The notes beneath the pieces are model-generated. The model was given only the letters and a program-made list of their open reading frames with translations. It was not told the DNA's origin and searched no databases. The translations under genes and the position numbers were made by a program. Of a stretch of 64,000 bases of DNA, positions 16,019 to 18,678 are shown piece by piece; within the stretch, counting starts at the first letter, position 1, and each line of letters starts with the position of its first letter. This DNA is from Mycolicibacterium tusciae JS617 (lineage in GTDB: Bacteria; Actinomycetota; Actinomycetes; Mycobacteriales; Mycobacteriaceae), in the NCBI RefSeq assembly GCF_000243415.2, contig NZ_KI912270.1, positions 1,860,001 to 1,924,000 on the forward strand, written 5' to 3'.

Positions 16019-17012
16019 CGGTCGCACTCCTGTCGGGCTCTTGCTTTGTGGGCATCAGCGACATCAATCGCACGAGGACCGGCTGAGGAATCACCTTGGC
16101 GGCGGCAATCATCACTTTCTGCGAAACGGTCAACGGGTAGGCGCCGCCCCGCATGGTCCCCTTCCTGGGGATGCCCATCGCCAGTCGCGGCACGTGATGC
16201 ATCCCCGCGGACGGCAGCACCCTGTTGACCATCAACAGCATCGACGCGTCTAGCCCCACACCCCGCCGTCGAAACGACCCCTGGTCCTCCAGCGCCTTGA
16301 GCACGCCGTCGGCGAAGCGGTCGGGTGGTCGTGCGAACTTCATCGCAAATCGGCCGCGCGAGTTCATGGTGTTGTGAATGCGGGCGTAGGGACCGTCGAA
16401 CTTCCGATCGTCGGTAGTGCCCGCGTCGGTGATGATGTCGGTGTCGTACGTGCCACTGACCAGAACTGTCACCCCGAGACCGAAAGGCGCGATCTCACCC
16501 GCCAGCGACTCCGCCCACCGGTCGAGCGCTCCTTTGGCTGAGGAGTACGGCGCGATGCCGGGCATGCCGCGGACCCCGCCCGTGCTCGACACCATGACGA
16601 TCCGGCCCTGCCCCGCCGACCGCATCGATGGCAACAGCGCCTTGGTCAGCGCGACTGGCCCCATGACATGTGTCGAGAACATGTTCTGCCACAGCTCAAT
16701 GTCGGCTTCTTCCACCATTCCGGCCGCGGAGATACCTGCGTTGTGCACCACGGCATATGGCGCGCCAACCGCTTGTTCGATCGACTCGGCCGCCGCGGCG
16801 ATCGAGGCTGCGTCGATCAAATCGAGTTGAACCCCGATGAGACGGTCATCGTCCTCGCGAGCACCCGTCGCCTCACGCAGAAGCGGCATTCCGCGGTCCG
16901 GATTGCGCATCGCCGCGACCACGCGCCACCCCTCGCGATAAAGACGCACGGTCGACGCGAAACCGAGACCCCGTGAAGCTCCCGTGATCACGACGCTGCG
17001 CGGCTCAGTCAT
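16011..17012 (-). CDS. SDR-family oxidoreductase
   Basis: 333 residues from the ATG at 17012 (product begins TEPRSVVITGASRGLGFAST). The glycine motif is GASRGLG, with HNAGIS, VSSTGGVRG (Ser) and YSSAKGALD (Tyr/Lys), so the active site is complete. The C-terminal extension to about residue 330 (VPRLAMGIPRKGTMRGGAYP) is longer than in most SDRs. Earlier in-frame starts only add copies of an 11-residue unit encoded by the 33-bp tandem repeat, so they are not real N-termini. The nearest ribosome-site-like sequence (GAAGAA) is itself inside the repeat. It heads the ALDH-P450-P450-SDR operon, now cut off from the upstream AveC-like gene by an IS110-family element. Confidence 0.88.
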   Translation of the reverse strand: MTEPRSVVITGASRGLGFASTVRLYREGWRVVAAMRNPDRGMPLLREATGAREDDDRLIGVQLDLIDAASIAAAAESIEQAVGAPYAVVHNAGISAAGMVEEADIELWQNMFSTHVMGPVALTKALLPSMRSAGQGRIVMVSSTGGVRGMPGIAPYSSAKGALDRWAESLAGEIAPFGLGVTVLVSGTYDTDIITDAGTTDDRKFDGPYARIHNTMNSRGRFAMKFARPPDRFADGVLKALEDQGSFRRRGVGLDASMLLMVNRVLPSAGMHHVPRLAMGIPRKGTMRGGAYPLTVSQKVMIAAAKVIPQPVLVRLMSLMPTKQEPDRSATDD

Positions 17013-17101
17013 CGTCTGTTCTTCGCGCAAGCGCTCATCACCCATCGTCTGTTCTTCGCGCAAGCGCTCATCACCCATCGTCTGTTCTTCGCGCAAGCGC
17101 T
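17010..17101. repeat. 33-bp tandem repeat, left part (split by IS)
   Basis: Two full 33-bp units (17036-17068 and 17069-17101) and a partial one (17010-17035). The core of each reads CGTCTGTTCTTCGCGCAAGC then GCT, and each unit begins CATCACCC. On the minus strand the unit reads as an in-frame peptide (MGDERLREEQT) running into the SDR start codon and provides its only ribosome-site-like sequence. The array continues beyond the inserted element at 18634. Confidence 0.92.
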
Positions 17102-17167
17102 CACTGGTGCACCATCCTTATGTCGGTGACCTCAGATGGGTCACCGATGCACCCGAGGTGCCGTCGA

Positions 17168-17308
17168 GTTACCGCCACAAGCGCTTGACGCATCGATGTC
17201 CATGATGAGTTTCGCGGGACTCGGCGGTTACCCGGGGTGTGCCGACCGTCGACAGGGCTGAGCGCCATCGAGCGCCGAACAGTGAGCGAACCGGCAGCCG
17301 CACCCCGG
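17168..17308 (+). ncRNA. Putative bridge RNA (target-binding and donor-binding loops)
   Basis: Two stem-loops can be read. Loop 1: outer stem GTTACCGCC (17168-17176) with GGCGGTTAC (17223-17231), one mismatch; apical hairpin GACG-CATCGA-TGTC (17187-17200). Inside are CAAGCGCT (17178-17185), identical to the left flank of the insertion, and TGATGAG (17203-17209), complementary to the right flank CTCATCA. Loop 2: outer stem CCGGGGTG (17232-17239) with CACCCCGG (17301-17308), extended by TGCCG/CGGCA; apical hairpin GCGC-CATCGA-GCGC (17262-17275). Inside are ACAGGGCT (17252-17259), identical to the element's right end, and CAGTGAG (17280-17286), complementary to CTCACTG at the left end. This is the guide layout known for IS621-type bridge RNAs. 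RNA ends are not determined. Confidence 0.85.
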
Positions 17309-17358
17309 CACCGAAGTTTGGGTGCCTCCCCACTGGGACTAGCAGCGAGGAGGCTGTG

Positions 17359-18609
17359 ATGAAGTATGCCCCAACGGTCTTGGCGGCGGAACCCGCCAAC
17401 GGATTGACCAGTGGAATCGATTGGGCCCGTGACGATCACGCGGTATCGATCGTCGACGACCGCGGCGTCGAGATCCACCGAATCCTCATCGAACACAACG
17501 CCGCGGGACTGCGCACGCTGGTAAGCACATTGGCCCGACGCGGGGTCACCGAAGTGGCCATCGAACGTTCCGACGGCCCCATCGTCGATGCGCTGCTGGC
17601 CGCCGGCATCACCGTGGTGGTGATCAGCCCCAACCAACTCAAGAACCTGCGGGGACGCTACGGGTCGGCCGGCAACAAAGACGACCGGTTCGACGCCTTC
17701 GTGCTCGCCGACACCCTGCGCACCGACCGCACCCGGCTGCGCCCCCTGGTCCCCGACACCGCCGAAACCATCGCGTTGCGCACTGCGTGCCGAGCGCGAA
17801 AGGATCTCATCGGCCATCGGGTCGCACTGGCCAACCAGCTGCGCGAACACCTCAACCGCGTCTTCCCCGGCGCCGTGGGCCTGTTCGCCGACCTCGACTC
17901 GCCGATCAGCCTGACGTTCCTGACCCGCTTCGACAGCCAAGATCGCGCCGACTGGCTCAGCCCCACCCGACTGGGCGCCTGGCTGGCCTCGGTGGGATAC
18001 ACCGGCGGCATGGATCCCGCGGTCCTGCACACCCGCCTGATCACCGCACCTCGAGGCGCGACTGGCGAGCAAGGCGCGGCCCACGCCCGCGTCACCGGCG
18101 CGCTCGTGGCCACCCTCAAAACCCTCGTCGAACAGATCAAGTCCCTCTCCGACGACATCGCCGAACAACTCGCCGCCCACACCGACGGACACATCTTCGC
18201 CAGCCTGCCCCGATCCGGGAAAATCAGAGCGGCGAAGCTTCTCGCCGAAATCGGGGACTGCCGCGGCCGCTTCCCCACCCCCGAATCCCTGGCCTGCCTG
18301 GCCGGCGTGGCACCCTCCACCCGACAATCGGGCACCATGCGAACCGTCGGATTCCGCTGGTCGTGCGACAAACACCTGCGCGACGCAGTCACCGACTTCG
18401 CCGCCGACTCCCGACACGCCAACCCCTGGGCCGCCGACCTCTACAACCGCGCCCGCGCCCACAAACACGACCACACCCACGCCACCCGAATCGTGGCCCG
18501 CGCCTGGCTCTTCGTCATCTGGCACTGCTGGCAAGACGGAGCCGCATACGACCCGGCTCAACACCGAGCCCTTCAAACCCTGCTCAACAACCAAAAAGCC
18601 GCCGCCTGA
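17359..18609 (+). CDS. IS110-family transposase (bridge-RNA-guided recombinase)
   Basis: 416 residues from the ATG at 17359, which follows GAGGAGG; longer in-frame starts would run into the noncoding guide region. The N-terminal RuvC-like DEDD domain shows GIDWARDDHAVSIVDDRG (Asp about residue 21), EVAIERSDGPIVDAL and NKDDRFDAFVLADTL. The C-terminal Tnp_20 domain includes LPRSGKIRAAKLLAEIGDC and LAGVAPSTRQSGTMRTVGF with the candidate catalytic Ser. In this family the protein binds the bridge RNA and recombines donor and target at a CT core. The reading frame is intact, so the element may still be active. It is transcribed against the surrounding catabolic operon. Confidence 0.94.
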   Translation: MKYAPTVLAAEPANGLTSGIDWARDDHAVSIVDDRGVEIHRILIEHNAAGLRTLVSTLARRGVTEVAIERSDGPIVDALLAAGITVVVISPNQLKNLRGRYGSAGNKDDRFDAFVLADTLRTDRTRLRPLVPDTAETIALRTACRARKDLIGHRVALANQLREHLNRVFPGAVGLFADLDSPISLTFLTRFDSQDRADWLSPTRLGAWLASVGYTGGMDPAVLHTRLITAPRGATGEQGAAHARVTGALVATLKTLVEQIKSLSDDIAEQLAAHTDGHIFASLPRSGKIRAAKLLAEIGDCRGRFPTPESLACLAGVAPSTRQSGTMRTVGFRWSCDKHLRDAVTDFAADSRHANPWAADLYNRARAHKHDHTHATRIVARAWLFVIWHCWQDGAAYDPAQHRALQTLLNNQKAAA

Positions 18610-18633
18610 CACCAGAGTTGACACAGGGCTACT

Positions 18634-18678
18634 CATCACCCATCGTCTGTTCTTCGCGCAAGCGCTCATCACCCATCG
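18634..18678. repeat. 33-bp tandem repeat, right part (split by IS)
   Basis: One full unit (18634-18666) and a 12-bp partial (18667-18678) of the same repeat as at 17010-17101, in register once the element is removed. The stop codon and last residues (ADG) of the AveC-like gene are encoded by the partial unit. Confidence 0.92.

Follow-up and report, generated by a model that had tools for sequence, protein, structure and literature searches.

IS900 of Mycobacterium avium subsp. paratuberculosis inserts between a ribosome-binding site and a start codon, and its hed frame was reportedly described by Doran in 1997. According to the passages on IS900 in PMC8141618, this element aims at translation initiation signals, hed is an open reading frame (ORF) that spans the element opposite the transposase without a ribosome-binding site or start codon of its own, and the insertions are termed 'stealthy'. 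The published sections on IS621 (PMC11208160, PMC11208158) describe an IS110 recombinase, a CT core, a bridge RNA encoded in the left end (LE) and insertion into a dispersed repeat, REP; the handshake positions there precede the core and, once strands have been exchanged, pair with the opposite loop (PMC11208158). In the IS1111 group, as outlined in PMC11187229, a DEDD recombinase works with a guiding RNA from a noncoding region, the seekRNA, which the account in PMC11208160 places mostly in the right end (RE) of elements with long subterminal inverted repeats.

Here we describe an IS110-family element that resembles IS621 in its recombinase domains, CT core, LE bridge RNA, loop order, strand choice, handshake guides and insertion into a dispersed repeat, as those features are set out in the sections cited. 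It differs in that two unmatched bases lie between its left donor guide and the core, whereas the IS621 guide is described as reaching core position 8. Unlike IS621, it also has a start-codon target, a Shine-Dalgarno stretch and GTG supplied by the LE, and a bridge-RNA gene with an open frame on its opposite strand; neither 'start codon' nor 'antisense' is used in the PMC11208160 main text. Its RNA lies in the LE, in contrast to the IS1111 group, and its RE, at about 22 nt past the stop codon, is not the long RE that holds the guide RNA there. IS900 with hed is the nearest apparent precedent by analogy with the passages cited, but our element is inserted after (A/G)TG-AG and its left end re-supplies a Shine-Dalgarno sequence and a start, IS900 being compared by description only. 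Among titles and opening lines of abstracts in the open-access literature, we recognized none that described an IS110 element replacing a start codon. Reading the DNA, we estimate at about 0.84 the probability that this element directs its insertion to start codons, provides a replacement start and mimics a cistron.

An IS110-family element in a tandem host repeat

The window, the whole 64,000-nt stretch analysed, comprises positions 1,860,001-1,924,000 of contig C4 in a 7.3-Mb genome. The element (LE, recombinase gene and RE) occupies 17102-18631 on the plus strand, with boundaries drawn from the flanks of three genomic copies and common to relatives, and the core CT is present at both sides (17100-17101 and 18632-18633). 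Its sole recombinase ORF (17359-18609, plus strand) encodes an IS110 recombinase of 416 amino acids, identified by Pfam (PF01548, E=2.6e-34; PF02371, E=8.5e-18), alignment with IS621 and motifs, and carries the DEDD RuvC-like and Transposase_20 domains of the family. Its motif residues are D21, E69, D109, D112 and S324, the first two assigned by motif. The sole PDB sequence match was IS621 (8wt6, E=8.4e-6), in an alignment that spans the stretches with IS621 D102, D105 and S241 (hand count, with a 2-residue offset). Other IS110-family genes of the same genome lie at nine places on contig C4 (L010-L018) and are 27-35% identical.

Two of the three genomic copies are identical across the element, and the third (L003), which is frameshifted, differs by one or more substitutions and a single inserted base. 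All three are flanked by TTCGCGCAAGCGCT on the left and by CT and CATCA on the right, at loci unrelated to each other. Joining the left flank to the right flank of the window copy restores the neighbouring intact repeat unit; the insertion is flanked by the core with no target duplication past CT, as in the IS110 family. Because the intact units that adjoin this copy read CAAGCGCTCATCACC, the empty site is visible next door. Seven exact CAAGCGCTCATCA sites are still empty, including three within the array of the window itself, and a reversed control pattern gave none. The preliminary description had proposed comparing flanks and guides in other copies: the remaining two carry the same guides and occupy the same guide-matched target, and none was found in an unrelated target.

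The target lies in a tandem 33-bp host repeat (17010-17103, found by TRF) with a minus-strand leader frame, MSACAKNRRWV..., and the repeat, which is often tandem, resumes to the right of the element at 18634-18675. Target duplication and ordinary direct repeats were set aside, since the flanking array is host sequence with copies elsewhere. The genome contains 32 exact and 38 one-mismatch copies of TGAGCGCTTGCGCGAAG (reversed control, 1), and, of 118 genomes from the genus, 74 have exact copies. In the copies of this genome, and in L106, L107 and L116, the target is the start of the dispersed leader-like TGATGAGCGCTTGCGCGAAG (frame MSACAK...) and the left target guide is CAAGCGCT. The start and stop of the TGATGAGCGCTTGCGCGAAG repeat overlap neighbouring frames. 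A search by sequence letters found no literature name for the repeat.

A predicted bridge RNA with readable guides

The predicted bridge RNA extends approximately from 17122 to 17330 on the plus strand, as modelled with RNAalifold. It comprises a 5' stem-loop (17122-17148), found both by single-sequence folding and by RNAalifold, and target-binding (17161-17227) and donor-binding (17232-17308) loops placed by RNAalifold, all on the plus strand; this LE layout is the predicted arrangement of the IS621-like IS110 group. Across 32 chosen noncoding regions (NCRs), RNAalifold gave 59 pairs, 30 of which showed compensatory changes, within the 5' stem-loop, target loop and donor loop. Conservation of structure among relatives, which had been put forward as a check on the RNA, is therefore borne out by covariation. 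It is this alignment that provides the evidence for structure: taken singly, the sequence of the window copy folds only mildly better than shuffled versions (z -1.86; equally good folds in 10 of 200). No part of the window matched Rfam at the gathering score. The apical loop CATCGA, which the preliminary description took as a shared feature of the two stem-loops, is particular to the window copy, and apical loops vary among relatives. In L026, L027 and L029, about the first 43 bases of the LE are duplicated further inside the left end.

Each guide string reported from the initial reading was located. The left target guide (LTG), CAAGCGCT at 17178-17185, is identical to the last eight bases of the left flank, including the core CT. 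The right target guide (RTG), TGATGAG (17203-17209), reverse-complements the core plus right flank, CTCATCA (18632-18638, plus strand; TGATGAG on the minus strand), and spells the ATG of the host start. Both assignments rest on string matches and on covariation in relatives. Next to the RTG lies the target-loop handshake guide (17210-17211), whose first base pairs with RE base 18631, immediately before the core. In the donor loop, the left donor guide (LDG) ACAGGGC (17252-17258), assigned from covariation in relatives, matches RE positions 18623-18629 and belongs to the donor tract ACAGGGCT (17252-17259); the right donor guide (RDG) CAGTGAG (17280-17286) is complementary to CT plus the LE bases CACTG, and the donor-loop handshake base (17287) pairs with the target base preceding the core. 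All of these guides lie on the plus strand.

A three-base discrepancy had been noted between the donor tract and the core. A gap does exist, but ACAGGGCT stops one base short of the core CT. The right end reads ACAGGGC-TA-CT, so that the conserved 7-nt guide ends two bases short of CT at 18632-18633, and the 'three bases' correspond to the offset of the guide's own CT from the core CT. Apart from this, the original assignment stands: the element belongs to the IS110 group, and its predicted bridge RNA is arranged like that of IS621. Every sequence test made supports the predicted bridge RNA as real, and judged by its bridge RNA alone the element is a further member of the known IS110/IS621 type. 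Homology to IS621 suggests that the RNA would be active and would guide recombination.

Guides and handshake bases covary in relatives

We compared the element with relatives, among them 80 of the 106 given by a scan of genome contigs. The main guide and frame counts cover loci of at least 57% identity with a donor loop matched by pattern (62 rows including the window; left end located in 61, both ends in 48). Guides of L041, L044, L060, L061 and L065 were assigned by hand, and L150-L155 were left uncounted because their flanks resemble those of L035, L038, L055, L062, L069 and L092. Nearly all readable relatives begin their left ends with the same CA(C/T)TGG; the target loop is variable among them and the donor loop near constant.

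First, the RTG matched its own flank at 237 of 245 positions from +1 to +5 (49 loci), against a permuted mean of 165.8 and a maximum of 187 in 5000 shuffles. The match was 6/6 from the core in 44 of the 49, and positions +3, +4 and +5 each matched in 47, against 24-26 when permuted. Because the flank searches required CT for the left core and CT[CG] for the right, the core matches and part of the +1 match are built in. Second, the LTG matched its own flank at 205 of 354 positions from -3 to -8 (59 loci; permuted mean 158.8, maximum 180). The varied LTGs (32 loci) averaged 4.09/6, ten of them reaching 6/6, and the common LTG CCTGCTCGCT (27 of 59 loci) averaged 2.74/6 against 2.88 for foreign flanks. 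Chance guide matching was set aside on these permutations. Not every guide is strict: CCTGCTCGCT, the commonest LTG, does no better than it would at foreign flanks. CCTGCTCGCT is common across genera (for example L027, L056, L058 and L059), shows no left-flank match past (C)GCT, and has a complement that resembles a protein start (ATG AGC GAG CAG). At L029, the base adjacent to the core departs from the rest in both guide and target.

Third, the LDG 7-mer equalled the RE 7-mer in 58 of 61 loci, with ACAGGGC (46) and ATAGGGC (12) covarying, some letters of this 7-mer being fixed by the RE search pattern. The LDG is separated from the core by two bases in the family and by one in a distant group. 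Fourth, in 45 of 46 loci the base after the RTG pairs with the last RE base preceding the core (permuted mean 34.0, maximum 42), and in 56 of 59 the base after the RDG pairs with the target base preceding the core (permuted mean 52.2, maximum 56, p=0.0008), including a rare T:A pair in L034 and G:C pair in L083. The next handshake positions, including the second base of 17210-17211, gave no pairing signal among relatives. Since the handshake bases pair in relatives, the gap between LDG and core is part of the design, and the noted discrepancy corresponds to the handshake position. Overall, guides covary with target and donor as expected of the IS110 group, the LTG doing so in part of the family only.

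The target is a start codon and the left end offers another

The initial reading overlooked that the guides spell a start codon, that the left end re-supplies one and that the bridge-RNA region is open on the other strand. Of 48 complete loci, 41 have CAT or CAC in the right flank just past the core, giving (A/G)TG-AG|C on the minus strand. Upstream of this start, a host Shine-Dalgarno sequence at -6 kcal/mol or below was present in 51% of the 41, compared with 11% of control windows (p=6e-8). In 22 of 39 start-type loci, an upstream ORF of 143 codons or more ends at the TGA of xTGAG, and 15% of 439 control TGAs from other loci close such an ORF; on the Rhodococcus plasmid pRWAY03, RefSeq ends the upstream gene at the same TGA inside xTGAG.

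Read outward, the left end presents a Shine-Dalgarno-like stretch and then CCAGTG (CCAATG in a few relatives). In the window element, the putative replacement start is the GTG at 17102-17104 (minus strand), read as GTG-AGC and overlapping a TGA (GTGA); it is assigned from relatives, in which host domains begin shortly afterwards. The outward Shine-Dalgarno-like AAGGAT lies upstream at 17114-17119 (minus strand), and is supported by an anti-Shine-Dalgarno duplex test in relatives: 87% of 54 start-type loci reach -6 kcal/mol or below, compared with 0 of 7 other loci and 6% of NCR control windows, and means are -8.15 kcal/mol for start-type and -2.67 kcal/mol for other loci. Because the left end terminates in CCAGTG, GTG-AGC would stand in for the lost host start.

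Left-flank ORFs of at least 100 codons were found in 27 of 48 loci, in 20 of 48 for another frame and at 40% of 86 control sites, which is a weak test of gene starts, and Pfam start positions were therefore used instead. Host frames from 30 of the 54 start-type loci were compared with Pfam, namely all 24 of at least 150 amino acids and six shorter ones picked by hand. Read from the LE GTG, 25 of the 30 had a Pfam match, which in 22 of them began no later than profile position 15. Of these 22 good cases, 15 have a domain that begins within the first 40 residues; in the other seven it begins at residue 48-162, and there the natural start could be further in. Examples of host domains are Lyase_1 (L057, a protein that we take by eye to be an argininosuccinate lyase), a low-molecular-weight phosphatase (L084) and short-chain dehydrogenases (L027, L043 and L060). 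Matches from later profile positions occurred in L051 (from 29) and L037 (from 40), L093 is inserted within a gene (match from position 190), and the tested frames of L067, L042, L050, L059 and L039 had no Pfam match.

An open frame on the opposite strand

An antisense open frame of 512 codons including the stop (17101-18636, minus strand) runs from the host ATG-AG to a TGA. Its 511 open codons cross the recombinase and bridge-RNA genes, and the TGA overlaps the new GTG; the window element thus has a host-started, full-length antisense ORF like hed. Among relatives, the NCR measured to the recombinase frame has 32 different lengths (220-314 nt), 23 of which are 2 mod 3 (p=9.5e-6); counted by locus, 51 of 61 NCRs are 2 mod 3, and the rule is broken in 6 of 54 start-type loci. 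The NCR lacks stops in the relevant antisense frame in 52 of 61 loci, compared with 3 and 10 for the other antisense frames and 15, 0 and 2 for the sense frames. A full antisense ORF, from host xTG to LE TGA, is present in 31 of 42 loci with a start-codon RTG and in none of six others. Within the recombinase gene, the three codons that read as antisense stops numbered 9 against 117.8 expected in 42 start-type loci and 8 against 11.5 in four others, with expectations from the codon usage of the window only and genes with in-frame stops or fewer than 390 codons excluded. Other IS110 genes of the same genome contain 8, 3, 3, 7 and 0 such codons.

It might be argued that this frame, like hed of IS900 in the proposal made for it, codes for a protein with a function, and that start codons are targeted for its expression. 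The hed account, in its passages on an other-strand frame without its own ribosome-binding site and start (PMC8141618), offers a precedent. We consider such a protein unlikely: the NCR shows no codon-position signature (diversity 0.245, 0.269 and 0.216), sense third positions are the most variable, the product has no Pfam match up to E=1, and an outward Shine-Dalgarno sequence and GTG at the left end would be left unexplained. An antisense product under amino-acid selection was set aside on the lack of both constraint signal and Pfam match. Because no amino-acid constraint is seen, we infer that translation itself is what maintains the frame, which would mimic an operon cistron.

Frame and Shine-Dalgarno sequence tend to follow the guide type

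The RTG departs from (A/G)TGAG in seven loci, which are scattered on the recombinase tree. A frame without stops occurs in 48 of 54 start-type loci but in one of seven non-start loci (p=1e-4), the link between RTG and frame having first been noticed in the very loci later counted. On the tree, RTG type changes 7 times, the frame 12 times and the Shine-Dalgarno sequence 12 times. In six independent pairs on supported branches, the frame follows the RTG in 5.3 and the Shine-Dalgarno sequence in 5.1 on average, and the reverse never occurs; the sign test per trait gives a median p of 0.06, on a quick tree in which four rows have long branches. A further nine start-type loci were fetched later (L106, L107, L110, L111, L113, L116, L117, L156 and L158), seven from host congeners. 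All nine have an NCR of 2 mod 3 and a Shine-Dalgarno sequence at -6 kcal/mol or below, and five of the seven with a located right end have the full antisense frame; the exceptions are L116, which is out of frame, and L158, which is interrupted by an IS3 element. Also fetched later but uncounted were L108, L109, L112 and L114, which repeat L027, L029, L039 and L042 by their flanks, L115 (partial) and L157 (non-start RTG, left end not located).

These results bear on a plain explanation, an IS621-like element with real guide matching in which start position, antisense frame and Shine-Dalgarno sequence arise as by-products of high GC content and common descent. Long antisense frames are indeed common in GC-rich DNA, as the weak left-flank ORF test illustrates, relatives share ancestry, and some start-type lineages have lost frame and Shine-Dalgarno sequence without an RTG switch. 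Yet the frame persists through NCRs of 32 lengths, frame and Shine-Dalgarno sequence associate with RTG type, antisense stops are avoided (9 versus 118), and all nine later loci obey the rule, though several are from congeners. We therefore regard such by-products as a highly unlikely account.

That the mycobacterial leader repeat is targeted as such, as REP is by IS621, with the start codon incidental, would fit the abundance of the repeat and the location within it of the three copies here and of L106, L107 and L116 in congeneric genomes, but is scarcely credible, as relatives with other LTGs occupy starts of unrelated genes. Repeat targeting is a local specialization of the LTG.

A sister branch between convergent genes

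A sister branch of 50-56% identity, treated separately, comprises nine loci in which each end could be read (L080, L082, L085, L087, L088, L090, L091, L092 and L094); L089 (3-nt left flank), L073, L077, L102, L103 and L104 were left out there. The RTG is GGCTGAG in all nine, and the LTG contains a readable TGA in eight (the LTG of L087 was not parsed). These elements lie between convergent genes: in 9 of 9 examined, a TGA on each side ends a frame of 143-759 codons, against 15% of 439 control TGAs, although other frames were sometimes equally long. The left stop was taken as the last TGA within 14 nt, and is 7 nt from the element in six. Ten of the 18 neighbour proteins were tested and nine matched Pfam, five to the last profile position; they include a DNA polymerase family A protein and an amidohydrolase. 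In L045, L098 and L157, the RTG ends in CTGAG and the right TGA closes an ORF of 173-493 codons, a possible case of stop-codon targeting of separate origin.

Probably the lineage addresses the punctuation of the genetic code: one branch would aim at (A/G)TGA starts, which often overlap a stop, and act as a counterfeit cistron that brings a Shine-Dalgarno sequence and start for the displaced gene, and the sister branch would aim at facing stops. One strand of the DNA would hold the guide RNA and the opposite strand a ribosome-permissive frame, and natural reprogramming of the guide would alter the two together.

A proposed model for insertion with replacement of the host start

The guides, fold, boundaries, start-codon position, open frame, Shine-Dalgarno sequence and the association among them, all established from sequence, suggest how targeting of start codons with a replacement start might operate. 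The bridge RNA would pair the circular junction (ACAGGGC-NN-CT-CACTG) with the host site CAAGCG-CT-CATCA. On the host sense (minus) strand this site reads TGATG-AG|C-GC and contains a start codon, which here belongs to the leader-like frame of the dispersed mycobacterial repeat. By recombining after (A/G)TG-AG, the element would leave the host Shine-Dalgarno sequence and start codon at its right end, and its left end would be fused to host coding sequence that begins with the second codon, AGC. There, CCAGTG behind a Shine-Dalgarno sequence would create a new start, GTG-AGC, and the minus-strand frame runs from the host start codon to the TGA overlapping this GTG. Because a host-started frame would end at the TGA/GTG overlap, the insert would resemble a translationally coupled operon cistron to ribosomes. 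Both neighbouring genes would stay intact and the insert would be non-polar. Re-initiation at GTGA, and selection favouring elements that spare host genes, are what this anatomy would predict.

If true, this model would account for the ability of a programmable transposon to insert into dense operons and leave their genes unbroken. It would also bring together examples of natural guide reprogramming and the sequence co-adapted with it, and would offer ready-made sets of guides and donors for actinobacteria. Frames like hed of IS900 may be a path for translation rather than a gene product. More generally, the model would make testable whether mobile elements pick their targets by codon punctuation.
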